From NCBI GenBank assembly GCA_903913215.1, contig CAIWKE010000026.1, positions 1 to 64,000 on the forward strand: a stretch of DNA of 64,000 nucleotides, written 5' to 3'. Numbering within the stretch: the stretch's first letter is position 1; every line of letters starts with the position of its first letter. The translations under genes and the position numbers were made by a program. This document shows positions 1 to 12,399 of the stretch, piece after piece. The stretch is from an uncultured Holophagaceae bacterium. Lineage in GTDB: Bacteria; Acidobacteriota; Holophagae; Holophagales; Holophagaceae. The notes beneath the pieces were generated by a model, which worked only from the letters and a program-made list of their open reading frames with translations, made no database searches and was not told the DNA's origin.

Positions 1-27
1 CCAGTATTGACTCGGTCTTATTAATGT

Positions 28-57
28 TGACCGGTCTCTGACCGGTTTATGACCGGT
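28..57. repeat. Three 8-bp direct repeats at one-turn spacing
   Basis: TGACCGGT occurs at 28-35, 39-46 and 50-57, exactly 11 bp apart, so all copies lie on the same face of the helix. A further GACCGGT lies at 460-466, just before the helicase gene. Phased short repeats upstream of a replication gene look like iterons or an operator for an element-encoded protein. The binding partner is unknown; the function is inferred from spacing and position only. Confidence 0.55.
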
Positions 58-105
58 AATGGAAAACCAGAAAACCAACCAAACTACAGGGCATGAATTG
101 CTCGT

Positions 106-156
106 GAGGCAGTCGAACTGCGGTCGGGCTACGCCCTCCCTGCGTCCGACTGCCTC
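106..156. repeat. Inverted repeat able to form a long hairpin
   Basis: GAGGCAGTCG at 106-115 is matched exactly in inverted orientation at 147-156. The 31-nt interior holds a second small stem (GGGC 126-129 with GCCC 133-136). It lies in a gene-free leader. It could be part of a recombination site, a structured leader or an insertion-sequence remnant. It does not carry the RYYYAAC/GTTRRRY ends expected of an attC site. Confidence 0.45.
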
Positions 157-164
157 AAATCTGG

Positions 165-208
165 GGGGTCAGGAGTTTTGTCGCGAAGAGGGGTCAATAG
201 TTTTGTCG
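165..208. repeat. Pair of 19-bp direct repeats, IS21-end-like
   Basis: Two 19-bp copies (165-183 and 190-208) share 17 bases, with pattern GGGGTCA-NN-AGTTTTGTCG, at a 25-bp period. Read on the minus strand they give CAAAACT..TGACCCC repeats close to a TGTCAA start. That style of repeated end resembles IS21-family termini, but no istA or istB gene is present here. From 209 to 523 no convincing gene is visible. Remnant status is an inference. Confidence 0.35.
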
Positions 209-523
209 GTTGACAGTGATGGCATCGACCTGCCTGAAGGGCCTTCCTGAGTGCAGATTATTTGGGCCCATGATGGCGGCGGCGAAAATAAATTTTTCGA
301 AGCATGGTTGAAAGATTTGCTTTAGACCCCTCCGAGGAGCCCTCGGCGGGGCATCCAATGGGCCCTGAATCATGATTTTCACCTTTCCTTGAAGGCCGGA
401 TTTGACCTGCCTCCGAGGACGCATCCCTCATGGACCACTTCGATAAACCTCCTCATAGCGACCGGTGTCTGGGCTTGACCCAGGATGCGACAACCGGGAT
501 GGGGAGGCCTTCGGAGGTCTGAG

Positions 524-2248
524 TTGACTCTAGATAAGTACCAATTTGAACCTGCTGGGGTCTTCATTCTGGATGCCCCTGAAGAACACGCCGAAAAAAT
601 ATCGGACGTCACTAAGTTCGTAGAGGAAAGGGGAGGAAGCTGGAAGTTCTGGCGCGGATCCCTTTCAGTCCACATAGATGGCCAGAAAGCCAATGTGATC
701 ATCTGTAAGCAGATGAAGAAGGAAGCGGAAAATCTTCTACGTACTTTCAACTACATCGTTTCAGTCAAAGATTGGGAAGAGCACACCCCCGAAGAGAAAC
801 AGAAAGCCTTGGCCGGTATCCCAGATTGCATCTATGACCTGACCAAGGACTGGTTGGCCTACGCGACCTATGGGGCGGGGAAGCAACGCCGACTGTTAGT
901 ACGACAATCTTTAGTGGCCAACACTTGGCGCGTAGTTGAAGACCCGATCGGATTCCTTGGAAGCCTTCGCTATGAGGGTGGTCTGGTTCTCGACTACCTT
1001 GATGCCAAACTGGCGGAACTACATCGAGAAGGCGTCACCAGATGGGGCATACATGCCAAGTTGGGGGTGCTGGACTTCACTCGGGCCTTCACCGAGTTTG
1101 ATCTGCCAACCCGCATCCTAGACGATAGGCGCTACTACAAGGAGCTAATCCCCTTCACCAATGACCCCAATACTCCAGCGGAGGCCTACTTCCCTTGTGA
1201 TGGTGGAGGAAATATGGCAGGCACATGGGACGCATGGGCTAGGTTTGAGACGCAGATCCCCCCAGCCCTAATCCCAACTTGGAGGGCGGCAATTCGCGGC
1301 ATCATCGATGCTAGAAACAAAAGCCGCCAGATCATCTATCTTTATGACCAAGGCTACACAGCCAAAAGTCAGGTAGCCTCTGCCATCCATACCGTCATGG
1401 AAGGCCTATCGGCCACGCTAGATGAGGATGCATTAAACTCCGCATTCTGGTTCAGCGGAATATATGGTGCCAGATTTATAAATTTGCCGGATGTAAAGGA
1501 TCAGGAGCTACTAGACAACCCCAAGATAAAGCGAATCACAGGTGGGGATTATTGCCGCCATGAGGGTAAAGGGGACACAGCCTTTGATACTCAACCCAAT
1601 TGCAGACTTATGGCAGAGGCAAACGCTCCGCAGAAGGTGGATATAACGAAACTCTCAGAGCTTCTTCGTTTCCTATTTTTCCCACTCCAGCGTAACGATG
1701 ACCCTGAATTCGTAAAGCCTTTCGTGGTGCAAGATAAGGATGGTAACCCCCTCAGATATGAGTCTGGAATCCGCAAAGGCACTTGGAAATACAAGGGCAA
1801 TCCGCAATACCAGAAAGACCTTATCGTTCAGTTCTGGGACTACATGGTTGTCTGTGAGCCAGATTACAATAGGCTCTGCCCCACTCACGGTGACATAGCT
1901 GCACCCGAAGAAATGCTGGACATGATCGCAGAGAAGTGTGCGACCGGTGAGTCAATCGCATTCTTAGAAATGATTGATAATCTGCTTGAATTTGGGAAGG
2001 ACAAGCGACTCTCAAATTTAGAGCTTCGTGCAATCCTCAAGCATAGTGATATCCCTGAGGATCAATTTACCGACATCCGCAAGAAGCTACTGGATAAGAG
2101 AGGCGTCCGTGACGGCGGAGCCGCCAAGGTCAAGGGGCAGAGATGCCTAATCGGTGTTGGCCTTCGCCCTGGCGTGACCGTCAACATGGGCAATGTGACC
2201 TTCGCCCACCAAGCAATATCCACCTCTCATGAGGACGCGGGTCTATGA
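524..2248 (+). CDS. SF3-type helicase, phage/plasmid replication, degenerate Walker A
   Basis: Probable superfamily 3 (D5/P4-like) replicative helicase of a mobile element, 574 residues. The region after residue 270 follows the SF3 order: a beta-strand and P-loop-like YDQGYTAKS (about 275-282), an acidic strand NLPDVKD (about 320-326), the family signature KRITGGD (about 336-342) and a motif-C-like asparagine in ANAP (about 367-370). The P-loop keeps Lys-Ser but the two usual glycines are Asp and Ala, so ATP binding may be altered. The N-terminal 250 residues carry no primase motif or zinc cluster that I recognise. I chose TTG at 524 because GGAGG sits 6 nt upstream; an in-frame ATG at 485 has no such site. 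The stop overlaps the polymerase start by 4 bp, so translation is probably coupled. Confidence 0.7.
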   Translation: MTLDKYQFEPAGVFILDAPEEHAEKISDVTKFVEERGGSWKFWRGSLSVHIDGQKANVIICKQMKKEAENLLRTFNYIVSVKDWEEHTPEEKQKALAGIPDCIYDLTKDWLAYATYGAGKQRRLLVRQSLVANTWRVVEDPIGFLGSLRYEGGLVLDYLDAKLAELHREGVTRWGIHAKLGVLDFTRAFTEFDLPTRILDDRRYYKELIPFTNDPNTPAEAYFPCDGGGNMAGTWDAWARFETQIPPALIPTWRAAIRGIIDARNKSRQIIYLYDQGYTAKSQVASAIHTVMEGLSATLDEDALNSAFWFSGIYGARFINLPDVKDQELLDNPKIKRITGGDYCRHEGKGDTAFDTQPNCRLMAEANAPQKVDITKLSELLRFLFFPLQRNDDPEFVKPFVVQDKDGNPLRYESGIRKGTWKYKGNPQYQKDLIVQFWDYMVVCEPDYNRLCPTHGDIAAPEEMLDMIAEKCATGESIAFLEMIDNLLEFGKDKRLSNLELRAILKHSDIPEDQFTDIRKKLLDKRGVRDGGAAKVKGQRCLIGVGLRPGVTVNMGNVTFAHQAISTSHEDAGL

Positions 2249-4425
2249 GCCAATTGGGGCCTGTCTCGTTTGATACGGAATTTAATCGGACCAACCAAGA
2301 ATTCCAGAATGTGGTCTGCGGCGTATGCATCGTAGATGAGGTTGAGTTTCGCTACTGGCTATTGGAGGTAGCGGAAAGAGATCGCTTCCATCGGGACTGG
2401 GATCGCTGGATGGCTGAAGGTCGGGCCATCATCTGCTTCAACGCGACAGCGGAAGCCCGAAGCCTTCTAGCACTCGGCTACACCTTCGTGCAGATGTATA
2501 GGTGGATTTGGGTTGACACCTATATTTGGTGGAAAATGTTGGTCCTAAGTCACCCATGCCACCGCTGGGGTGCCAAGTTTGTCACTCGTGATGGCAAGCG
2601 GGTGGCAATCCTGACGACTCCCCCACCTGATGGTGAGCTAGACGAAGACACTTTCACGGAGGATGGCTCCGGTGGGTTGGTGCTCATGAAAGCCAAGGAG
2701 CGCTACAAGGCGCATACAGCCAGTCTAGCGTCAGCCCTGGGGCACTTATTCCAGGTGGATATCAACGAGGAACACAAGGAAGCTATGGTCCATTTGATCC
2801 TTGAGGGTGGCAAGGACTTCACTCCAGAGCAACGTGAGCAGATCCTGGCCTATTGTGCTGAAGATGTGAAGTATCTACGGCCCCTGGCACGAACCTTAGT
2901 GGATGTCGTGAAGCAGGAGACAGGAGGCGCCATCGGTCTGGACCACCTCAAGTACCTTTCTGTCTATTCAGTGTGCAATGCCCAGATTGAAAACAATGGG
3001 ATTCCCCTGGATGTCAAGAAAGCCAAGATGCTATCCAGCAACATACCATTCGCAGAAGATGCCCTCATTTCCGAATGTGTTAAGGCATATCCGTTCTATG
3101 GCAAAGAGAAACTGACCTCAGAGGACAAACGGAGAGGTAAAGTCGGAACCCATAAGTGGGTTGAGAAAAAGGATAAGTTCATGTCCTATATCGATTCACT
3201 CGGTATGCGCGAAGCATGGCCCAAGACCGCCAAAGGTGGTCTTAGGGCGGATGTGGAGACCCTGAAAGATTACAGTGGTGACAAGATACTAGCCACCTAC
3301 CGCACCTGTAAGAAATCCCGCAACAACTTGCGCTACTTTGGGCCCGATAAGTGGAAAAAGATGGAAGGGAATGTTGGGGATGACTCTCGCATACGCCCTG
3401 GTCTTCGTCCCTTCGGGACCGTGACCAGCCGCCACACCCCGCAGCCCAGCAAGGGCTACATTCTCGCCATGTCGACTTGGTTGCGTACTTTGATCGAAAA
3501 GAAGGGCAGTGTGATCCTGTCCTGTGATTACTCCTTCGAGGAAATGGTCCTTCAAGCATGGGCCTCAAATTGCCAGAACCTCATGGACGCATGTCAATCT
3601 GGTGACCCATATTTGTGGCTGGCTCAATACTGTGGTGCCATCAATCCCCTATACCGCAGGACCCCTGAAGGTTATGTCAATGAGCGGGGTGAGGTTCTAG
3701 ACAAGGACGGCCAGAAATCAACTCATGCTATACGAGGCACCTACAAGAGTTTGATGTTGGGCCTAGGCTATGGAATGGGCCCCGAGTCTCTCAGCATCAG
3801 ACTCACGCAGACTCGCATGGCGAACATGCTTACTTCCGATGAGCAGGACGTCATTAGCAAGGCCAGATTTGATTCGGACCCAACGATACAAGCGCAGGCC
3901 AGCGTACTACTGGATCGAGTTCAGATTGTCCCAAATGGCGCTGGGATCCCTGCAGAGAAAAAGGCTGTCACCTATCGCGACTACCACCGCGCCACATTTA
4001 GCCAGTACTGGGATTGGCGTGAGAACTTCGTGAGAGCTTTCAGGGCGCAGGGATGGGCATCAACACCGGATGGATGGTGCGTATTTTCCTGGGTAACAGA
4101 TCAAACAGCGAAGAACTTTTACATCCAGGGGACCGGACAGACCATTTTAAGACGGGCTGTGCTTCGCTGCCTTTTGCGCGGGTTGCGCGTGGCCTCCCCA
4201 TTGCACGATGCCCTGTATGTCGAGTCCACACCCGAAAACCAGCAGGCGGATATGGCGATGCTGGTGGAAGAAATGACCCAGGCGGTAACTGACATCTGCG
4301 GCAGCCCAATCATCAGGGTTGACCCGAAGGTCATCCATACCGACTGGGAGAAGGGGGTTTCCGACTGGACGGCCGACAAACAGGAAAAGGAATTTGCTAA
4401 GCTTTCCAAGTACATGCTTTTTTGA
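2245..4425 (+). CDS. Family A DNA polymerase with 3'-5' exonuclease domain
   Basis: DNA polymerase of the PolA family, 726 residues, phage/plasmid type: it lacks the 5' nuclease domain of host Pol I. Exonuclease motif I is FDTE (10-12) and motif III is YCAED (203-207). At motif II the usual Asp is replaced by Glu (NATAE, 66-70). Polymerase motif A is CDYSFEE with Asp428, motif B is R497..K501..YG509-510, and motif C is LHDAL with His654-Asp655. All three polymerase motifs are therefore intact. The start overlaps the helicase stop (ATGA). Together the two genes form a replication module, but no primase or initiator is visible beside them. Host polA is normally larger and is unlikely to be this gene. 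Confidence 0.9.
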   Translation: MSQLGPVSFDTEFNRTNQEFQNVVCGVCIVDEVEFRYWLLEVAERDRFHRDWDRWMAEGRAIICFNATAEARSLLALGYTFVQMYRWIWVDTYIWWKMLVLSHPCHRWGAKFVTRDGKRVAILTTPPPDGELDEDTFTEDGSGGLVLMKAKERYKAHTASLASALGHLFQVDINEEHKEAMVHLILEGGKDFTPEQREQILAYCAEDVKYLRPLARTLVDVVKQETGGAIGLDHLKYLSVYSVCNAQIENNGIPLDVKKAKMLSSNIPFAEDALISECVKAYPFYGKEKLTSEDKRRGKVGTHKWVEKKDKFMSYIDSLGMREAWPKTAKGGLRADVETLKDYSGDKILATYRTCKKSRNNLRYFGPDKWKKMEGNVGDDSRIRPGLRPFGTVTSRHTPQPSKGYILAMSTWLRTLIEKKGSVILSCDYSFEEMVLQAWASNCQNLMDACQSGDPYLWLAQYCGAINPLYRRTPEGYVNERGEVLDKDGQKSTHAIRGTYKSLMLGLGYGMGPESLSIRLTQTRMANMLTSDEQDVISKARFDSDPTIQAQASVLLDRVQIVPNGAGIPAEKKAVTYRDYHRATFSQYWDWRENFVRAFRAQGWASTPDGWCVFSWVTDQTAKNFYIQGTGQTILRRAVLRCLLRGLRVASPLHDALYVESTPENQQADMAMLVEEMTQAVTDICGSPIIRVDPKVIHTDWEKGVSDWTADKQEKEFAKLSKYMLF

Positions 4426-4448
4426 AACTTGACGAATGGTCGGATATT

Positions 4449-4468
4449 GGGCGGCGTATGCCGCCCTT
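4449..4468 (+). terminator. Hairpin after the polymerase gene
   Basis: GGGCGGC (4449-4455), loop GTAT, then GCCGCCC (4460-4466), followed by only two T residues. It lies 23 bp after the polymerase stop. It is a strong stem but a poor U-tract, so termination may be partial or factor-assisted. Confidence 0.45.
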
Positions 4469-4476
4469 GCCATGCA

Positions 4477-4770
4477 CGGGACAGTACATGGCCGTACTGG
4501 TCCAATTGACTTATTTATTAGACTTATATAAAAAAGGACACAGTACAGGATTTTGTGGGTTGTGTGGAATGTGTCATCTCATCACATCATCCTACTTTTT
4601 TATATCAATCATTTTTTTTGATAAATAATTCAATAAATGGAATGTTATCAACAGAAATGCACATGATGATGATCATCTCCCACGAGACCCATGAATTCTT
4701 GTACTGTGTACTTTTGTAGTTAAGTTATTTGTATGCTTATTTAAGACTAGTACAGCCATGTACGATCCCG
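4477..4770. repeat. 294-bp inverted repeat with AT-rich centre, possible origin
   Basis: Two 91-bp arms (4477-4567 and 4680-4770) align without gaps in inverted orientation. Two blocks are strongly conserved: GTACATGGCYGTACTRGTC (left copy 4484-4502) and an ACACAGTACA block (left copy 4538-4547) that extends to TGGGT and GTGG. The 112-bp centre is very AT-rich and contains TTATCAACA (4645-4653), one base from the DnaA-box consensus. An AT-rich spacer flanked by inverted binding blocks directly after a helicase/polymerase pair suggests a replication origin of the element. Alternatives are a pair of regulatory sites or an old transposon. Confidence 0.5.
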
Positions 4771-4999
4771 TCCATTGAAGGGCCGACACATGATGCCCAC
4801 TGCGTGGGTGGCTACGGTAACTGGCCCCCCAGGGGAGCAGGTCGAATCGGGATTTGGAGACACTCCGCGCTACGGCCCGTAGGCCGCTGCGCCGACCACC
4901 GAGAAGGTCACTGAATCTGCGGCAAAGGGCCGATGCGATCAAGCCTAGTTTGGCCCTAGCCCCTGCGGGGCCTGGGCCAGAGAATCCGATCCATGTTGC
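4771..4999. other. Gene-free spacer with a strong hairpin
   Basis: No convincing reading frame or RNA gene is visible. A stem of 12 bp with a two-base internal mismatch lies at 4952-4978 (GGCCC..GCCCC, TGC loop, GGGGC..GGGCC). It sits just past the stop of the minus-strand gene at 5000 and could end its transcript, although no T-run follows on that strand. Confidence 0.35.
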
Positions 5000-5329
5000 T
5001 TAAGCCCGTAGGATGCGGTCCAGGGCCTCCCCCGAGTCATTATCTGCCCAGATGGTCGACTCCCACTCCCAGGAACGGTTGGTAACTACTGGAGTAGGCT
5101 CTGAGGGGCCATTGTCACCAGTCTTGGTGCCATAGGTCATGCCGCCGTTATCCGAGTTCCGCTCCCCGCTGGATGGTGTCTTAGGCGCAGAACTAGGCGA
5201 AGACTTTGGCGTGGATGCAGATCCACCAGGGATTGCCGTGGGATTGGTCTTCTTCGTGGGCCCCGCACCGGATCTTCCAGATTGGAATGCCTCGGGTGCC
5301 TTCATGAGCAATTTGGATACACGCAGCAT
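5000..5329 (-). CDS. Small protein with Pro/Ser/Thr-rich linker, unknown function
   Basis: Encodes 109 residues. The start is well defined: AGGAGG lies 6 nt upstream of ATG at 5329. The protein has a short basic N-terminus (MLRVSKLLMKAP), a long low-complexity middle rich in Pro, Ser, Thr, Gly and Lys (about residues 18-80), and an acidic C-terminus with WEWESTIWADND. The layout of ordered ends and a flexible linker resembles small DNA-metabolism or scaffold proteins of mobile elements, but no family is recognised. It is divergent to the recombinase and is transcribed towards the polymerase module. Confidence 0.55.
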   Translation of the reverse strand: MLRVSKLLMKAPEAFQSGRSGAGPTKKTNPTAIPGGSASTPKSSPSSAPKTPSSGERNSDNGGMTYGTKTGDNGPSEPTPVVTNRSWEWESTIWADNDSGEALDRILRA

Positions 5330-5477
5330 ATGAGCCTCCTCTATAGCAAAAGGGAAACGCTCCATCTGTTTGCTTCGGGCTTACTCGCAGGGTCCCATCC
5401 GATTTCCGAATGGATGCCACTCAGAGGGCGCTTCCGAAAAATCAGGAAGTCCGCCCCCTCTGGAAGTTCCTTGGCTT

Positions 5478-5625
5478 GAATACGAGTTGACCTCGAAAAG
5501 GAGGCTCTTCGCCTCCCCTCGCAGAGATCTGCACAAAAAGTTGTTCAGTGGCCAGTCTGAATACAGGTTGACCCCACCTTCTGATCAGAAGGTGGCCCAT
5601 GGCTGGGAGGGGGTCAACTCGTATC
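5478..5625. repeat. Repeat cluster with 22-bp perfect palindrome
   Basis: The motif RATACRRGTTGACC occurs three times: direct at 5478-5492 and 5559-5573, and inverted at 5610-5625. Between the last two lies a perfect 22-bp palindrome at 5574-5595 centred on TGATCA. A small hairpin (5500-5505 with 5511-5516) is also present. The cluster is 100-300 bp upstream of the serine recombinase, where a resolution (res) site or operator could lie. Repeat ends with GTTGACCCC also occur in IS21-type elements, so a remnant of such an element is possible. Confidence 0.5.
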
Positions 5626-5726
5626 CGTCAAATCGGGGTATAGACAGGCTTGGCATTTCGATTTCTCTAAGCCTGCTTGATTTCTTTGGCTTTCCTGTGT
5701 CAAGCCAGGGTGCAAAATGATTCTCT

Positions 5727-5755
5727 TGACACTTTCCAATCAGGATCTTATACTT
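5727..5755 (+). promoter_or_regulatory. Near-consensus sigma-70 promoter of the recombinase gene
   Basis: TTGACA (5727-5732) and TATACT (5750-5755) are separated by exactly 17 bp. The expected start of transcription is about 20 bp before the recombinase ATG. The -35 box overlaps CTTGACAC, which has an imperfect inverted partner at 5697-5705 (GTGTTCAAG), so autoregulation by a bound protein is possible. Confidence 0.7.
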
Positions 5756-5782
5756 TGATCTGACACATTGAGGGAGATCATC

Positions 5783-6337
5783 ATGGCGCAGGTCGGATAC
5801 ATCCGGGTTAGCTCAAATGGCCAGAACACCGAGCGCCAGCTTGAGGGGGTGCTCCTGGACGAGACCTTCACGGATAAGGTCAGCGGGAAGTCCCTGGACC
5901 GCCCCGCCCTTCAGGATTTGCTCAGGTATGTTCGGAAGGGAGATGAAGTAATTGTTCACTCCATGGACAGGTTGGCCAGAAACTTGTCCGACCTGCTAAA
6001 GCTGGTCACAAACCTGACCAGCAAGGGGGTCAGGGTGAGCTTCAAGAAGGAATCACTCACCTTCACTGGTGAAGATTCACCGATGGCAACCTTGATGTTG
6101 TCAATTATCGGTGCAGTAGCTTCTTTTGAGCGATCCATGATTCATGAACGCCAGTTGGAAGGTATCGCCATCGCCAAGGCAAAAGGCATTTACAAGGGGG
6201 GAAAGCCCAAGCTCTCCCCTACCCAGGCCGAGCAGCTACGCTGCAGGGCCCAGGCGGGGGAGCCCAAGGCCAAGCTGGCAAGGGAGTACGGCGTCTCCAG
6301 GGAAACCGTCTACAGCTATCTCCGAAGCGCCAGTTGA
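5783..6337 (+). CDS. Serine recombinase, resolvase/invertase (DNA-invertase Pin-like)
   Basis: Site-specific recombinase of the small resolvase/invertase class, 184 residues. The nucleophile is Ser10 in YIRVSS with Arg8 beside it; the catalytic DRLARNL motif holds Asp62, Arg63 and Arg66. The long dimerisation helix follows (about 100-125), and a helix-turn-helix of the resolvase type occupies about 145-183. ATG at 5783 is preceded by AGGGAG; an upstream TTG in frame is less likely. The gene has its own strong promoter. Its stop lies only 24 bp from a truncated attC site, so it may mark the event that broke the cassette array. Its natural target site is not known. Confidence 0.93.
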   Translation: MAQVGYIRVSSNGQNTERQLEGVLLDETFTDKVSGKSLDRPALQDLLRYVRKGDEVIVHSMDRLARNLSDLLKLVTNLTSKGVRVSFKKESLTFTGEDSPMATLMLSIIGAVASFERSMIHERQLEGIAIAKAKGIYKGGKPKLSPTQAEQLRCRAQAGEPKAKLAREYGVSRETVYSYLRSAS

Positions 6338-6360
6338 GCTTTAGGCAATGCAGGCGGGGG

Positions 6361-6383
6361 CCGACTTGAGCGGAGGGTTAGGC
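6361..6383 (-). other. Truncated attC site (R''-L'' half only)
   Basis: On the minus strand the sequence starts GCCTAAC, then CCTCC, then GCTCAAGTCGG. It is the same arrangement as the 5' halves of the two complete attC sites at 7312-7379 and 7883-7983. The expected opposite half ending in GTTAGGC is missing; about 24 bp further on the recombinase gene ends. A degenerate TTGAGC..TTTAGGC lies at 6334-6346 and may be a second relic. This site would have been the 3' end of the cassette encoding the 301-residue protein. Confidence 0.6.
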
Positions 6384-6400
6384 TGTATGACCTATGGAAT

Positions 6401-7306
6401 TCATTGCTCTAGACGACGAAAGACACGCGGTTCACTTCTTTGACTGGTGTCCGTAAGGTTTTCAGCAAGTGGTTGTTCAGTCACTATTAATTCACCATCC
6501 TCATTGAGAACAAAAAAAAGGTCTCTATCGGAAGGACCTGGCCCTGTCCGCATCCACCATCGATTAGTGCCCCATGGGATGAAGGATCCATTTTTCCATA
6601 GAGTTGTTGTTTTGTTAGGCCGTCCAGCCGTTAGCGAAGTCGAGGCGTACCGAATCTCCATTGGTGTTCCTGGGGGTGTCGGCTCGATGTCCATGTTCCA
6701 AGTAGTGCCATGGTTGGGTAGAGACATCCACTTACCAACCAAGGCAGGGGGGGTGAGGTTATGTTTGAAATGAAATTCCAAACGATATGGACCGGGACGA
6801 GGGGTAACTCTTCTATAAATACGAGTCCGCTCTGGTCTTTCTACGACACTTTCAAGTGTAAAAACACCCTCAGTGATTTTTAGTGTGGAATCATCCACGA
6901 GAATGATCTCACCGACTATCCATGCAGAAAAAAAGCCTAAGGACAGGTAGGACCACTGTCGATCCCCCACTTCATTGAAGTGGATGTCGCGTTCTCCGTA
7001 CTCTATCGGGAGCGAGTTGCGTTTTGGAGAAAACACATCCAACGACTGGACTTCGTACAATTTGCGATCAGTAAAATACAAAAAATTGGAGTATTGACGC
7101 TGATTGGGTTCTGAAACGATCCAGGCACCTTGAAGAATTTCAGGTGGGTAGTGAACCCTGTATGATCCTATTTTTTCAGAATACAGTTCAGCCTTTTGAA
7201 GGTGGTCATTGACCTGCGCCTTGCCTGCACTGACTAAAACGAAAAGCAGAATGAAGGTTATGGCAATCTTCATTTTTATTTGCCATTTCGGATGAATAGT
7301 GTCCAT
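6401..7306 (-). CDS. Cassette-encoded secreted protein, unknown function
   Basis: Encodes up to 301 residues. A signal peptide is clear: MKIAIT followed by a hydrophobic stretch ending in SAGKAQ. ATG at 7306 starts 6 bp from the attC core, as is common for cassette genes. A second ATG at 7273 gives a more classical signal peptide, and neither has a good ribosome site. The mature part is rich in Trp and Pro with two similar halves (LQGAWIV.. near residue 60, LVGKWMSL.. near 190). This suggests a duplicated lipocalin-like or META-like fold, but I do not recognise a family. GC is clearly lower than the core genes to the right. Confidence 0.65.
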   Translation of the reverse strand: MDTIHPKWQIKMKIAITFILLFVLVSAGKAQVNDHLQKAELYSEKIGSYRVHYPPEILQGAWIVSEPNQRQYSNFLYFTDRKLYEVQSLDVFSPKRNSLPIEYGERDIHFNEVGDRQWSYLSLGFFSAWIVGEIILVDDSTLKITEGVFTLESVVERPERTRIYRRVTPRPGPYRLEFHFKHNLTPPALVGKWMSLPNHGTTWNMDIEPTPPGTPMEIRYASTSLTAGRPNKTTTLWKNGSFIPWGTNRWWMRTGPGPSDRDLFFVLNEDGELIVTEQPLAENLTDTSQRSEPRVFRRLEQ

Positions 7307-7311
7307 GGAGT

Positions 7312-7379
7312 GCCTAACGGAAGAAGTTAACCGGACCAGGCGCTTGCGCCTGGGTCTGGGTTGAACGGAGGGTTAGAGC
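7312..7379 (-). other. Complete attC site (68 bp)
   Basis: Read on the minus strand: GCTCTAAC (R''), spacer CCTCC, GTTCAACCCAGACC (L''), hairpin tip CCAGGCGCAAGCGCCTGG, GGTCCGGTTAAC (L'), CTTCTTCC and GTTAGGC (R'). L'' and L' pair with single unpaired bases left on one side, the extrahelical bases that define the strand used by integron integrases. It ends the cassette of the 159-residue lipoprotein. The CTAAC/GTTAG core boxes and symmetric L boxes are directly visible. Confidence 0.85.
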
Positions 7380-7397
7380 GCGAAGCGGGCACATGGG

Positions 7398-7877
7398 TTA
7401 ATACCTCAACCTTACCGAATCGGCCGACTCGAAGCTGGATGAATCGATTTCTCCGGGAATGCTGGACTGAAAATCCGCGAAGCCTGACTCCAAAGTGAGT
7501 CGGCCATTCTCGAAGCCCTTAACGCTGCTCAGATGGGAATACATACCGATGAACTGGTTTGACTGGTCGAAAACGAGGAGTCGATTCGTTGCCCGACATG
7601 ACCCGCCCCAGACCGTGCTGAAAAGGACAAGGTGAACGGGTTTGGCTGATTGAGTGATGCCGAGGTATTTGAACTCTTGTTCATGGAACTGGCCCTTGGC
7701 CCACAGCGGAACTTTAGTGGCTTTGAGGCTCTTCCAGAGCGAATGAATCAATGGCTTTGGGCCTATAAACCTGCGAATTGAAGCGCCGTCGCTGCAATCA
7801 GGAACTTGCTGCCCCTGTGCGGGCAGAACCGAACAGCCCAGCAGCCAGAGTGAAGCAACAATTGCGAGAGGGGACAT
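7398..7877 (-). CDS. Cassette-encoded lipoprotein, unknown function
   Basis: Encodes 159 residues. The N-terminus is a lipoprotein signal: MSPLAIVASL then LLGC with the lipidated Cys at about position 15. The mature part has two further Cys residues that could pair and no family that I recognise. The ATG lies 5 bp from the core of the preceding attC site and the gene ends 19 bp before its own attC site. This is the compact layout of an integron gene cassette with no room for a separate promoter. GC is lower than the chromosomal backbone. Confidence 0.7.
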   Translation of the reverse strand: MSPLAIVASLWLLGCSVLPAQGQQVPDCSDGASIRRFIGPKPLIHSLWKSLKATKVPLWAKGQFHEQEFKYLGITQSAKPVHLVLFSTVWGGSCRATNRLLVFDQSNQFIGMYSHLSSVKGFENGRLTLESGFADFQSSIPGEIDSSSFESADSVRLRY

Positions 7878-7882
7878 CGAGC

Positions 7883-7983
7883 GCTCTAACGTAGGAAGCT
7901 AACCGGCCCAACCGTGGACCAGGAGCAGCGGTGATGGAGTGCGTTGTTCACGGTTGGGTCCGGGTTGAGCGGAGGGTTAGGGC
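7883..7983 (-). other. Complete attC site (101 bp)
   Basis: Read on the minus strand: GCCCTAAC (R''), CCTCC, GCTCAACCCGGA (L'') continuing into CCCAACCGTG; a variable end of about 30 nt; CACGGTTGGG, GCCGGTTAGC (L'), TTCCTAC and GTTAGAGC (R'). The arms pair over more than 15 bp with three unpaired bases on one side, the extrahelical bases typical of attC. It ends the cassette of the 173-residue protein. The R''-spacer-L'' block is nearly identical to that of the other sites here, as expected within one array. Confidence 0.87.
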
Positions 7984-7999
7984 GATCAGGCGTAGGGGA

Positions 8000-8521
8000 T
8001 TAATCATTAGGCGAATGATCCCAGGCATACCCATTTCTCTTTGGGAGTAAAAGCATGCCTTCTGATTCGAAGCCACCAACCAGCAGTCGGTAGGGTTTTG
8101 GGCGAGGCGAGCCATAGAAAAGCCCTTGCCCAGCTAGGTCTAGGTATTCAGAAGCAAAGGCGGGCTTGTGAGGTTGATTGCCAGGGAAGGGCCCATTGAA
8201 GACGAGTAGTTGAAACCGCTTGGATGCGGTAACAGGGGCGATTACTACGATGGCGAGATCTTTTTGACCATCACCATTGAAGTCGCCAACCATTAAATAG
8301 GGTTGGTAATTTGGGACAGCTTTCCAGGCGCCACCAATGCCTCGTCGAAGGGCCTGGATTTGCTCTTTGCAGTCGCCACAGTCGGATTCCGTGGCTAGTC
8401 GGAAACCCGTATGACCTTTCAGCCAGGTATCGACAACCTGCTGGTGAGCCGGTTGGAGTTTCTGACCCGTCGGAGTTGCTGCGACGGATAGGACGGCTGA
8501 AAGAAAAAGAGTCGGGATCAT
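8000..8521 (-). CDS. Cassette-encoded secreted FG-GAP-like protein
   Basis: Encodes 173 residues with a signal peptide ending near AATPTG. The middle contains VGDFNGDGQKDLAIVV (about residues 77-92), the Asp-rich calcium-binding loop of FG-GAP/VCBS-type repeats, followed by a strand. Two Cys residues in SDCGDC (about 47-52) could form a disulfide or bind a metal. Such single-repeat proteins are usually exported; a precise role cannot be assigned. The ATG lies 12 bp from a lone recombination core (8533-8541) and the stop 17 bp before the attC site. Gene, core and attC together form one cassette. Confidence 0.7.
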   Translation of the reverse strand: MIPTLFLSAVLSVAATPTGQKLQPAHQQVVDTWLKGHTGFRLATESDCGDCKEQIQALRRGIGGAWKAVPNYQPYLMVGDFNGDGQKDLAIVVIAPVTASKRFQLLVFNGPFPGNQPHKPAFASEYLDLAGQGLFYGSPRPKPYRLLVGGFESEGMLLLPKRNGYAWDHSPND

Positions 8522-8763
8522 GTTGAGGGAGCGCCCCTAACTAGGGATTCTGCGACAGGGAGGTTTGCATAATTGTCGTAGAACCCCGGAAGAGAAACAT
8601 CGGAAATGCTGCCATTCGGATTCTTCCATTCTTGGGTTCTAATTACGCAAGCGTAATGATTATCGGATACAAGGGCATCGAGCGAAATTTTACAGTGCTT
8701 TGGTTTGCCATCCATTCTTGCACCACTTAGACGGCTGATGTCAGTAAACCGAGGTGCTTCCAT
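8518..8763 (-). CDS. Possible small or truncated cassette gene
   Basis: An 81-codon frame from ATG at 8763, with a TTG alternative at 8778. The stop (TGA) overlaps the ATG of the next gene and the frame reads straight through the recombination core at 8533-8541. The translation (GARMDGKPKHC, GFYDNYANLPVAES) looks protein-like but matches nothing I know, and no ribosome site is visible. It may be the 3' end of a cassette gene fused to the core after loss of its attC, or a chance frame. Confidence 0.35.
   Translation of the reverse strand: MEAPRFTDISRLSGARMDGKPKHCKISLDALVSDNHYACVIRTQEWKNPNGSISDVSLPGFYDNYANLPVAESLVRGAPST
8533..8541 (-). other. Isolated integron core site
   Basis: GTTAGGGGC on the minus strand matches the R' core of the neighbouring attC sites and sits 12 bp before the ATG of the first recognisable cassette. 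No L boxes or partner R'' box are found to its right. It could be the recombination point of an attI site or the surviving end of a deleted attC. Confidence 0.5.
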
Positions 8764-8808
8764 CGCATGAAGGGCCAATCTGCTGCGGCAGGCAAGCCAA
8801 GCAGGGGG

Positions 8809-9027
8809 TTACTGAGAGGTTTTGGACCAAGTGGCGATGGTTGTCCAAACAGCAATCCCCACTAAGGCCCCTTCCTTCCGGCGAGGGGCGAGGGCCAGAC
8901 CGATTTCGATGACAGCCACCAAAAGGCATTCGCCAAGTTTTTGAACCAGGGACCATCTTGCAGATCTGCGTAGGGAGGCAGGCCTAGGACTGGCAAGCCA
9001 CCCTTTCTGGGTGGTTTCATTGAAACA
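8809..9027 (-). pseudogene. Open frame without start codon, probable gene remnant
   Basis: A frame of 72 codons is open from 9027 down to TAA at 8809-8811 but has no ATG. The translation has a basic segment (SLRRSARWS), a hydrophobic helix (GECLLVAVIEIGLALAP) and an Arg/Lys cluster followed by another apolar stretch (LVGIAVWTTIATW). This looks like the tail of a small membrane protein. I do not recognise it. It lies between the cassette array and the island boundary. Confidence 0.25.
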
Positions 9028-9116
9028 CTAACCAGGGTGTAAGAAAAAAATGTAGCCAAAATGTAGCATAATAAAAATATAATCAATTAAATATTGAAAA
9101 TAAAGGTTAACACCCC

Positions 9117-9194
9117 GGCAAGATCGTCCGCCGGGCCCTCAAGGCCGAGGCCCTCGGGCAGGATCCCGGGGATCTGAGCACGCTGGCGGATTAG
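9117..9194 (+). pseudogene. 3' remnant of an acyl-CoA synthetase (AMP-forming)
   Basis: Codons from 9117 read GKIVRRALKAEALG then PGDLSTLAD and a stop at 9192-9194. This matches the C-terminal signature of AMP-forming acetyl/acyl-CoA synthetases, where GKI-x-RR carries the catalytic lysine and GDxSTL is the usual tail. A TAA stands at 9108-9110 in the same frame and the DNA to the left is AT-rich. The composition returns to the high-GC backbone exactly here. The rest of the gene is absent, so the island replaced or displaced it. Confidence 0.6.
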
Positions 9195-9313
9195 GCTGGG
9201 GTTTGTACCGCAAGGAAATGGAACTGATCACCACCAGCATTCAGTTCGCCTTGTTTATCGGCGTAGCCGATACCAAGAGGAAACCAAGGCACCAAGAATT
9301 GACCTGATGTCGT

Positions 9314-9341
9314 GCCCCGCATTCCCGAGAGAATGCGGGGC
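9314..9341 (+). terminator. Perfect 11-bp stem-loop, likely terminator
   Basis: GCCCCGCATTC (9314-9324), a 6-nt loop and GAATGCGGGGC (9331-9341), followed by ATTTGGTTTT. It probably ended transcription of the truncated acyl-CoA synthetase gene. A minus-strand frame of unclear status overlaps (9191-9379); otherwise 9195-9481 shows no gene. Confidence 0.6.
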
Positions 9342-9481
9342 ATTTGGTTTTCATGCCTGGTCCGAAAAGCTACGTCCATGAAGCGGTGTCCATCGCGAAA
9401 TCGCCTGCCAAAGTCTGGGGCTTGGCCGAGGTTTATGCCTTGCCGAGCCTCTAGGTTGGCCCGCTCGGGCTACCATCACTG

Positions 9482-10714
9482 ATGCCCCGCCGCCGCCTTG
9501 CCGTCCTCCTCCTCCTGGGTTTCGCCTCGGGGCTGCCGCTCTACCTCACAGGGTCGACGCTGAAGGCCTGGATGACGGATGGGGGTTTGAGCCTGGGCAC
9601 CATCGGACTCTTCAGCCTCGTGAGCCTGCCCTACAGCCTGAAGGTGTTCTGGGCGCCGGTCCTGGACCGCTACGGCATCGCACTCTTCGGGCGGCGCCGG
9701 GCCTGGATGCTTGGCATGCAAGTGCTCATGGCGACGGCTCTGGTGCAGATGGCCTTCAGCCAGCCGCGCCTGGGCCTCACCCGCATCGCGGTCATGGCCT
9801 TCTGTCTGGCCCTCACCAGCGCCACCTTTGACATTGCCGTGGATGCCTGGCGCGCTGAGGCGCTGGACCAGAAGCACCTGGGTCTGGGCAACAGCATCCA
9901 CATCGCGGCCTACCGGGTGGCCATGCTGGTGAGCGGAGGCTTGGCCCTCATCCTTGCCCAGGCTTTCGGCTGGCGCTTCACCTACCTGGCTATGGCGCTG
10001 CTCACGGCCCTGGGCATGGTGGGCACCTGGATGGCCACCAACACGGACGACTTGGCGCCAGCGCCCCGCACCTTCATGGAGGCCGTGACCGGGCCCCTTC
10101 TGGACCTGCTGAAGCGGCCGGGCATCGGCTACTTGCTGGCCTTCGCCGTGTTCTACAAGCTGGGGGACTGGCTGGCGGATTCCATGACCATCCCTTTCCT
10201 GCTGCGGGGCATGGGCTTCACCAAGATGCAGATCGGCACCGTTCAGAAAACCACGGCCATGGTCGCCATCATCATCGGCGGTCTCATCGGGGGCTGGCTG
10301 CTCACCCGCATAAGCCTGCGGAAGGCCCTGTGGATCTGCGCTTTCGTGCAGATGGGCAGCATCCTCGGGTTCTGGGCCATCTCTATGCTGGGTCGTCACC
10401 TGCCTCTGCTGGTGGCCGCTAACACGCTGGAGAACCTGGCCTTCGGCATGGGGGGCAGCGCCTTCGCGGCCCTGCTCATGGGCAGCTGCAATCGCTCCTA
10501 TACCGGCACCCAGTACGCCCTCTTCAGCGCCCTCATGGCGCTGCCCCGCTCCATCTTCTCGGGCCTCACGGGCTTCATGGCCGACTGGTACGGCTGGAAG
10601 CTCTACTTCCCCATCTGCGCCGCCGCCGCCATCCCGGGCATGCTGCTGCTGTTGATGTACAGCCGCTGGGGGCTGCCGGAAGGGGAAGATCTGGGATTGC
10701 CGATCGATCAGTAG
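9482..10714 (+). CDS. AmpG-like major facilitator permease
   Basis: Inner-membrane MFS transporter of the AmpG type, 410 residues, about 12 hydrophobic segments. The first helix, LGFASGLPLYLTGSTL, and the following loop with PYSLKVFWAPVLDRYG match the family's conserved N-terminus. AmpG imports anhydro-muropeptides for cell-wall recycling. In this protein the substrate is inferred from family only, and other AmpG relatives may carry different solutes. The gene stands alone and converges on the rhodanese-rluD-lgt operon. It is the first intact backbone gene to the right of the island. Confidence 0.85.
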   Translation: MPRRRLAVLLLLGFASGLPLYLTGSTLKAWMTDGGLSLGTIGLFSLVSLPYSLKVFWAPVLDRYGIALFGRRRAWMLGMQVLMATALVQMAFSQPRLGLTRIAVMAFCLALTSATFDIAVDAWRAEALDQKHLGLGNSIHIAAYRVAMLVSGGLALILAQAFGWRFTYLAMALLTALGMVGTWMATNTDDLAPAPRTFMEAVTGPLLDLLKRPGIGYLLAFAVFYKLGDWLADSMTIPFLLRGMGFTKMQIGTVQKTTAMVAIIIGGLIGGWLLTRISLRKALWICAFVQMGSILGFWAISMLGRHLPLLVAANTLENLAFGMGGSAFAALLMGSCNRSYTGTQYALFSALMALPRSIFSGLTGFMADWYGWKLYFPICAAAAIPGMLLLLMYSRWGLPEGEDLGLPIDQ

Positions 10715-10867
10715 GCCCATTTTTGATCCCCGTCCATCCCCGTGAATCCCCGGCCAATATGCCTTTTCTGAGGCACAGCCCGCAGTGTGTGGTTTCAAGA
10801 AGGGGGGGCCGTTGATGAGTAGGGTAAACGGTGGCCAGGCAACGGCCCTGCCTGTCACACCTACGCC

Positions 10868-10890
10868 GTCACTGCGCAAAACACAGTGAC
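10868..10890. terminator. Weak stem-loop between convergent genes
   Basis: GTCACTG (10868-10874) and CAGTGAC (10884-10890) form a 7-bp stem between the converging permease and rhodanese genes. No T-run follows. The rest of the 197-bp gap shows no gene. Confidence 0.3.
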
Positions 10891-10911
10891 CCGGAGCATC
10901 AGCGGCCTGAC

Positions 10912-11403
10912 CTACTTCGCCAGGGGTCGGCCTTCGCGGCGCCATGCCTTCAGGCCGCCCTGCATGACGTGAACGTCCTGGAAGCCCCGGCTCAGCAGCA
11001 GGTCCAGGGCCAGGTGGGCACCCACGTCGCTTTCATCCACCAGCACCATGGCCCGCCGAGCCTTGGGATCGGGCTGGGTGAAGCGGTCGGACAGCTCCCG
11101 GTGGGGCACGTTCAGGGAGCCTCGGATATGGCCCGTGCGGAAGGCCTCCGCCGTCCGCAGGTCCACTACCAGGGCTTCGGAGCCCACGGTGATGCTCTGC
11201 ACTTGTTCAGGGTCCAGAACAGGTCGGTGCTTCCCCCGGCGTCGGGAGGCGAGGCGGGGCAGCAGGACCAGCCACAGGAGCAGCAGGCAGAGCGCAGCGA
11301 AGAGGAGACCCGGGAGGTAGGGATGGGCCTCCAGCAGGGCTTCCAGTTCAGTGGGTTTCGGGATCAGGGCGAGCATGGGGGAACCCGGAATTGAGCTCAT
11401 CAT
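10912..11403 (-). CDS. Membrane-anchored rhodanese-like protein lacking the active Cys
   Basis: Encodes 163 residues: a transmembrane segment (about 30-50, LLFAALCLLLLWLVLLP), a basic stop-transfer stretch, then a rhodanese fold (about 72-160) with VVDLRTAEAFRTGHIRGSLN. The loop that normally holds the sulfur-carrying Cys reads VLVDESDVGAH, with no Cys. Sulfurtransferase activity is therefore unlikely, and a binding or regulatory role is more plausible. The architecture resembles YibN. It is the last gene of the lgt-rluD operon, 9 bp after rluD. Confidence 0.8.
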   Translation of the reverse strand: MMSSIPGSPMLALIPKPTELEALLEAHPYLPGLLFAALCLLLLWLVLLPRLASRRRGKHRPVLDPEQVQSITVGSEALVVDLRTAEAFRTGHIRGSLNVPHRELSDRFTQPDPKARRAMVLVDESDVGAHLALDLLLSRGFQDVHVMQGGLKAWRREGRPLAK

Positions 11404-11412
11404 GGTCGCGGC

Positions 11413-12399
11413 TCAGAAATCCGGCAATCCTAAGGATGCCGCCAGGGCGCGAAGGGTGTCGGGGATGGGGGCCACGGCCTCGATGCGCTCGCCGGTGATG
11501 GGGTGGTCCACCGAGAGCTTCCAGGCATGCAGGGCCGGGTGGGGCAGCAGCAGGGCCAGGCCGTCCACGTCCTTCCAGCGACCGGGGCCGCCGTAGAGGG
11601 GATCGCCCATGAGGGGCGCGCGCAGGTGCGCCAGGTGGACGCGGATCTGGTGGGTGCGGCCCGTAAGCAGCTCGCATTCCACCAGGGCCGCGCTGGTGGT
11701 GCGGGCCAAGACGCGGACGCGGGTCTGGGCGGAACGGCCACCTGCGGCCACCACCATGCGCAGGCGGTCGTGCTTGTGGCGGGCGATGGGCTCGTCCACC
11801 AGCAGGCTGCCCAGGGTGGGCAGGCGCGGCGAGTGGCGCACGATGGCCAGATAGCGCTTCTCCACGGTGCGGGCCTTGAACTGGGCCTGGATGCCCCGCT
11901 GGGCCTCGGCGGTCTTGGCGAGGCAGAGGCAGCCCGTGGTGTAGCGGTCCAGACGGTGGACCAGGCCGGGCCAGCCCGTGGCCAGCTCTTCGGCGTCCTC
12001 GGACGGTTCATCGGCATCGCTGGGATCCACCAGTACCGGCGCTTTGAGGCGATGCAGCAGGGCATTGACAATGGTGCCACTGGAGTGGCCAGGCCCCGGA
12101 TGCACGACCATGCCCGCGGGCTTGTCCACGATCCAGAGCTGGCTGTCCTCGAAGAGGGAATCGAGGTGAATGTCCTCGGCCTCCAAGTGGGCTGCCGGGG
12201 GAGCCACGGTCGGGGCCTCGGTCTCCACCAGATCCCCGGGCCGCAGGCGCACGCCGCCCTTGGTGACCGGCTCGCCATTCACCTTCACGACGCCGGTGCG
12301 GATGTGGGCGTCCCACTTGGCCCGGGGGAATTCGGGGAACTGGTCCGCCAGGTAGCGGTCCAGGCGGGGGGCACCCTCTTCGGCGCGCAGACTGATCAT
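11413..12399 (-). CDS. rluD: RluD-family 23S rRNA pseudouridine synthase
   Basis: RNA pseudouridine synthase, 328 residues. An S4 RNA-binding domain occupies about 8-65 and the catalytic domain about 85-300. The active-site motif is HRLDRYTTG with catalytic Asp151. A conserved GRTHQIRVH motif follows. RluD modifies helix 69 of 23S rRNA. Closely related paralogues (RluA, RluC) share the fold; the S4 domain excludes RluA but not every RluC-like enzyme. The start overlaps the lgt stop by 4 bp, so the two genes are co-translated. Confidence 0.88.
   Translation of the reverse strand: MISLRAEEGAPRLDRYLADQFPEFPRAKWDAHIRTGVVKVNGEPVTKGGVRLRPGDLVETEAPTVAPPAAHLEAEDIHLDSLFEDSQLWIVDKPAGMVVHPGPGHSSGTIVNALLHRLKAPVLVDPSDADEPSEDAEELATGWPGLVHRLDRYTTGCLCLAKTAEAQRGIQAQFKARTVEKRYLAIVRHSPRLPTLGSLLVDEPIARHKHDRLRMVVAAGGRSAQTRVRVLARTTSAALVECELLTGRTHQIRVHLAHLRAPLMGDPLYGGPGRWKDVDGLALLLPHPALHAWKLSVDHPITGERIEAVAPIPDTLRALAASLGLPDF

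Follow-up and report, generated by a model that had tools for sequence, protein, structure and literature searches.

The window analysed here comprises the first 64 kb of contig C26, from a draft assembly of 41 contigs of an uncultured Holophagaceae bacterium. Comparison of IS ends places the right end of a multi-copy insertion sequence (IS), which interrupts both a genomic island and the assembly, at positions 1-215; its target duplication, GTGAT, starts at position 216. The right part of the island follows (216-9114), bounded by this IS end on one side and by an 80-bp stretch (9115-9194, plus strand) on the other. The GC content of this part is 51.7%, compared to 66.4% in the remaining DNA at 9195-64000, and at the boundary it changes from 25.3% (9016-9114) to 71.3% (9115-9194). 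A first-pass annotation of the sequence had described AT-rich DNA ending at a TAA; this holds for the last 99 bp, whereas over its full length the island is just moderately AT-rich. The TAA (9108-9110, plus strand) lies inside the terminal AT-rich stretch, in frame with a GGC at 9117, from which the frame continues as GKIVRRALKAEALGQDPGDLSTLAD up to a TAG stop at 9192-9194. These 25 codons, which have no start codon of their own, encode the C-terminal 25 residues of the acs product (643 aa) of the same genome (25/25 identical; tblastn E 3e-9). The earlier recognition of an acyl-CoA synthetase tail, rather than of an unrelated protein, was thus correct, as was the placing of the right edge of the island inside that coding sequence; the frame assigned from 9117 is also right, but the repeated block starts two bases further to the left, at 9115. 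Downstream lies a gene for an ampG-family MFS transporter (9482-10714, plus strand; TIGR00901), a chromosomal gene located after acs in relatives. A 40-bp stretch just beyond the right edge of the island (9221-9260) is 85% identical to an intergenic sequence elsewhere in the genome (C35:21078-21117), and is probably a small dispersed repeat.

A search of the organism's own genome with the boundary sequence revealed a second acs tail on contig C10, 80 bp in length and 93% identical to that in the window, which closes an intact gene of 643 codons. Its product scores above the curated cut-offs for acetate--CoA ligase (NF001208, TIGR02188), and the gene is therefore named acs rather than generic acyl-CoA synthetase; the class first assigned was right, and this is its more exact name. 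The genome holds no other acs match at E <= 1e-200. The first-pass annotation had taken the rest of the gene to be missing, and in this it was mistaken, as the intact acs lies at the other end of the island. When the body of the gene is joined to the window tail, the same 643 amino acids are encoded, so that the protein is identical with either tail. The gene has not been broken by the island, since the latter supplies a replacement 3' end. The situation therefore differs from "regulated gene integrity", in which the target gene is broken while the element is integrated; with a complete acs in both the empty and the occupied state, the element is not expected to regulate the gene by disrupting it.

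The two contigs can be linked through the IS, within copies of which C10 ends and C26 begins. The left ends of this repeated element begin TATCGGGC and its right ends finish GGTTGACA, and all three right ends found pair with a left end by a 5-bp target duplication: GTGAT for C10/C26, GGGCT for C9/C13 and CTCCA for C17/C11. Because C10 and C26 share the GTGAT flank, and the same 5-bp rule applies in the two other contig pairs, one IS copy, absent from the assembly, most likely connects them. The 5' part of the gene, expected by the first-pass annotation to the left of the window, is in this manner located on C10. Without the IS, the island measures approximately 10.7 kb and consists of a left part that carries the integrase (C10:141-1984) and of the right part in the window (216-9114).

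Sixty genomes were searched for acs, and 28 of them, the organism's own included, contain it at E up to 1e-200. In the 27 loci of relatives the island integrase is never present, and ampG is found downstream of acs in 16; the flanks retrieved for the remaining 11, which were short or different, showed no ampG. Relatives lacking the island, the comparison proposed along with the original annotation, thus display acs directly before ampG. The host probably belongs to the genus Geothrix, judging from a matching integrase hit in G. paludis SG195. Across 47 genomes of the genus, two full-length copies of the 80-bp tail occur in the organism's own genome only; 35 others hold exactly one each, and the remaining 11 have a partial, a short or no match to the window tail.

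Six differences separate the two tails, all of them synonymous and at third codon positions (6/6); by simple arithmetic, the probability of six out of six at third positions is ~0.0014 if positions are random. The tail of the intact gene contains CTA, CTT, GCA and AGT. Within their codon families these have shares of 1, 3, 5 and 7% in chromosomal genes (a usage computed from hand-picked genes), as against 17, 20, 24 and 10% in genes of the island. At two of the six positions (CGC/CGG and CCG/CCC) the host uses both codons frequently, so these sites carry little information. The window tail fits chromosomal codon usage better than the tail of the intact gene by a factor of 10^4.7; with island usage the factor in its favour is 10^0.3. 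The window tail is also nearer than the tail of the intact gene to the tails of 23 out of 26 relatives, farther in one case and equal in two. As codon usage and the relatives agree, it follows that the 3' end of the intact gene is island-borne and that the native end lies in the window.

The integrase is encoded on C10 by an open reading frame of 374 codons, which starts 132 bp after the acs stop. It matches Pfam Arm-DNA-bind_3 and the phrog_1 integrase family; there was no match to an NCBIfam model, and its catalytic domain remained below a Pfam match. R237, K264, H311, R314, H337 and Y346 are invariant when the protein is aligned with three relatives, and we take these to be the catalytic residues of tyrosine recombinases. 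Two TGTAGC repeats at the right end of the island (9051-9056 and 9062-9067, plus strand) are candidate arm-type sites of this enzyme, and similar repeats also lie upstream of the integrase itself and of three related integrases. In five segments, which either separate the target from the integrase or form the right end of the island, TGTWGC occurs 7 times, compared to a mean of 0.33 in 2000 shuffles. Three of these occurrences are in the island itself, where the motif had been picked by eye before scoring, and are therefore post hoc; the other four, from the three related loci, provide a fairer test. The two acs tails share two identical blocks of 19 and 32 bp, and the crossover would be expected to fall in one of them.

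Matches to the integrase at E up to 0.001 were obtained in 11 of the 60 genomes, again including its own. Three matches in addition to its own cover most of the protein, with 38, 35 and 29% identity, and a scan of the genome collection with the integrase yielded the same three loci only, all of them in Holophagaceae. At none of the three is acs adjacent to the integrase. Two of these integrases, L008 (38%) and L009 (35%) in Geothrix, belong to the same family and also have TGTAGC-like repeats upstream, but are situated beside degenerate tRNA-Leu(TAA) remnants and not beside acs; an intact copy of this tRNA gene was recognised in G013, and these arrangements suggest undescribed islands at both loci. 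At the third locus (L010), the neighbouring gene end is found in one copy only, in an incomplete genome. Phage and plasmid collections contained 5 and 7 records, respectively, that match the integrase, at about 19-25% identity. When the 80-bp tail was compared with 50,697 phage records, 54 were matched and none covered 80% of the query; these matches are attributed to chance, since E is at least 0.2 among the best 20 of the 54 matches listed. A degenerate acs pattern hit four stretches in viral contigs, all four of which match acs, and in two of them (L101 and L102) an integrase lies near the gene; a second pattern, nearer to the Geothrix tail, had no match in these contigs. L101 and L102 were rejected as acs-targeting elements, because their integrase is unrelated to that described here, neither record contains a second acs tail, and acs is separated from the integrase by a tRNA-Ser gene. 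The island there probably uses tRNA-Ser, not acs.

The part of the island in the window encodes a primase/helicase-like protein (485-2248, plus strand) with a weak P4-type primase match below curated cut-offs, a phage-type family-A DNA polymerase (2245-4425, plus strand; phrog_17, E 3.5e-34) and a small serine recombinase of the resolvase/invertase type (5768-6337, plus strand; Pfam Resolvase and HTH_7, phrog_125); some of the remaining island ORFs have no Pfam match. The polymerase was present in one of the 60 genomes searched, its own, and the sole phage record that matches it does so at 27.8% identity. The pairing of a primase-like protein with a phage-type polymerase, the latter absent from the other 59 genomes and so distant from its phage match, indicates that the island may replicate itself. 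No phage structural gene was found among the seven island proteins scanned against PHROGs, which matched integration or replication families only, or none. The island proteins scanned gave no match to an AlpA-type regulator either, and the weak P4-type primase match is the only PICI/P4-like trait seen among them. The primase had no match in plasmids, scans of viral contigs with the integrase, polymerase and primase gave no confirmed relative, and Rfam had no match within positions 1-12000 of the window. PADLOC, applied to eight island proteins, produced a single match, of the polymerase to RTasPolA; a role in defence was rejected, as the protein resembles a phage replication polymerase (phrog_17). 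Two nested imperfect inverted repeats, of 55 and 46 nt and 75-76% complementary, follow closely on the polymerase gene at 4448-4799; they could be a relic or a structure resembling an origin.

Between the serine recombinase gene and the right end, the minus strand carries a cassette cluster (6345-8530) of three co-oriented ORFs (8000-8521, 7398-7877 and 6401-7306), of unknown family, separated by integron attC sites. Two of these attC-type sites are full and one is truncated. They resemble those of Geothrix chromosomal integrons, with up to 96% identity (G030), and sites of this type occur in 17 of the 47 genomes of the genus, the organism's own included; in four (G061, G023, G003 and G019) they lie on the same contig as an integron integrase that scores above the cut-off. 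A TIGR02249 match over the cut-off (265) is present in 29 of the 47 genomes. The organism's own draft genome has none, the best score being 74.9 bits among the matches listed, and no attC match was found in it outside the island. As in a CALIN, attC sites lie between co-oriented ORFs in a draft genome with no intI over the cut-off; the difference is that this cluster sits within an integrase-bearing island. attC sites have also been reported on phages (PMC9892861). Since this attC type recurs in Geothrix integron contigs, and the organism's own genome has neither an intI over the cut-off nor attC sites elsewhere, the island may transport integron cassettes of Geothrix. An 86-aa ORF next to the cluster (8518-8778, minus strand) has a 38% match over 65 aa in L113 (G030), close to the attC site that most resembles the one in the island.

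The window tail and the tail of C10 form an identity block at the two ends of the element (80 bp, 93%), an integrase adjoins one end, the target acs is intact, the site is uninterrupted in relatives and the contigs are linked. We consider it very probable, with little room for doubt, that this is a gene-restoring integrative island inserted by its tyrosine integrase in the 3' part of acs; the recombination reaction itself we infer. According to the proposed mechanism, a ~10.7-kb integrative island, together with one IS copy, would have entered the 3' part of the chromosomal acs of a Geothrix species through site-specific recombination by the tyrosine integrase, the attachment site of the island carrying a copy of the last 25 acs codons. 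attL would then be the complete acs ending in the island-borne tail and followed by the integrase gene, and attR would be the displaced native tail at 9115-9194, in front of ampG. Several observations count against this explanation: the tails are 93% and not 100% identical, the joining IS copy is absent from the assembly, 11 of the 27 loci have no ampG in the fetched flank, the tail of one relative is closer to that of the intact gene, and the integrase lacks an NCBIfam match and its catalytic domain a Pfam match.

The original notion that the island broke acs, leaving it truncated with the rest missing, agrees with the window contig holding the tail only, but is refuted by the intact 643-codon copy on C10, the sole match at the above threshold, and we give it almost no credence. 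A slightly higher, though still very small, probability is assigned to the idea that the second tail arose from faulty assembly or binning, or from a chance duplication of part of acs that had nothing to do with integration. The draft state of the assembly and the repeat at the end of both contigs speak for such an origin; yet the six synonymous changes mean that the two tails are not one sequence placed twice, ampG follows the window tail as it does in relatives, the integrase adjoins the other tail, and the contigs are linked by IS target duplications. The small serine recombinase, although encoded on the island within the window, is most improbable as the enzyme of insertion: at 189 aa, with Resolvase and HTH_7 domains only, it is of the small resolvase/invertase type, whereas an identity block that restores the gene end, with a tyrosine-integrase ORF at the edge, is the known tyrosine-integrase arrangement (PMC10111431).

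Islands and prophages that enter a protein-coding gene and bring a replacement 3' end, of the icd type, have long been known (PMC10111431), and 43.4% of catalogued islands are located in coding sequences (PMC12424338). As in the icd-type elements, an extended identity block is present at both ends, the gene is functional after integration, the integrase lies by one end and a displaced native fragment at the other. The differences are that the target here is acs, that the integrase has relatives in Holophagaceae only among the collections scanned, and that no phage structural gene was seen among the island proteins scanned. No report of acs as an integration target was found in the papers searched; this target gene may be new, and it appears unusual.

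A broader reading is conceivable, to which we assign somewhat less than an even chance. In it, acs would be an undescribed attachment gene, and a shift of target would have occurred within a small clade of Holophagaceae integrases, with a tRNA-Leu gene on one side and the end of a protein gene of central metabolism on the other. Selection would keep the gene-end copy functional while integrated, as synonymous changes only and foreign codons would reflect, and the element would ferry chromosomal-integron cassettes between Geothrix genomes, here into one without a full integron integrase.

Taken together, these results recast an apparent gene loss as a clear example of a mobile element protecting its target gene. 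They add acs as an integration target in Acidobacteriota, define an attB/attP pair for a new integrase, and suggest a possible vehicle for integron cassettes in Geothrix.
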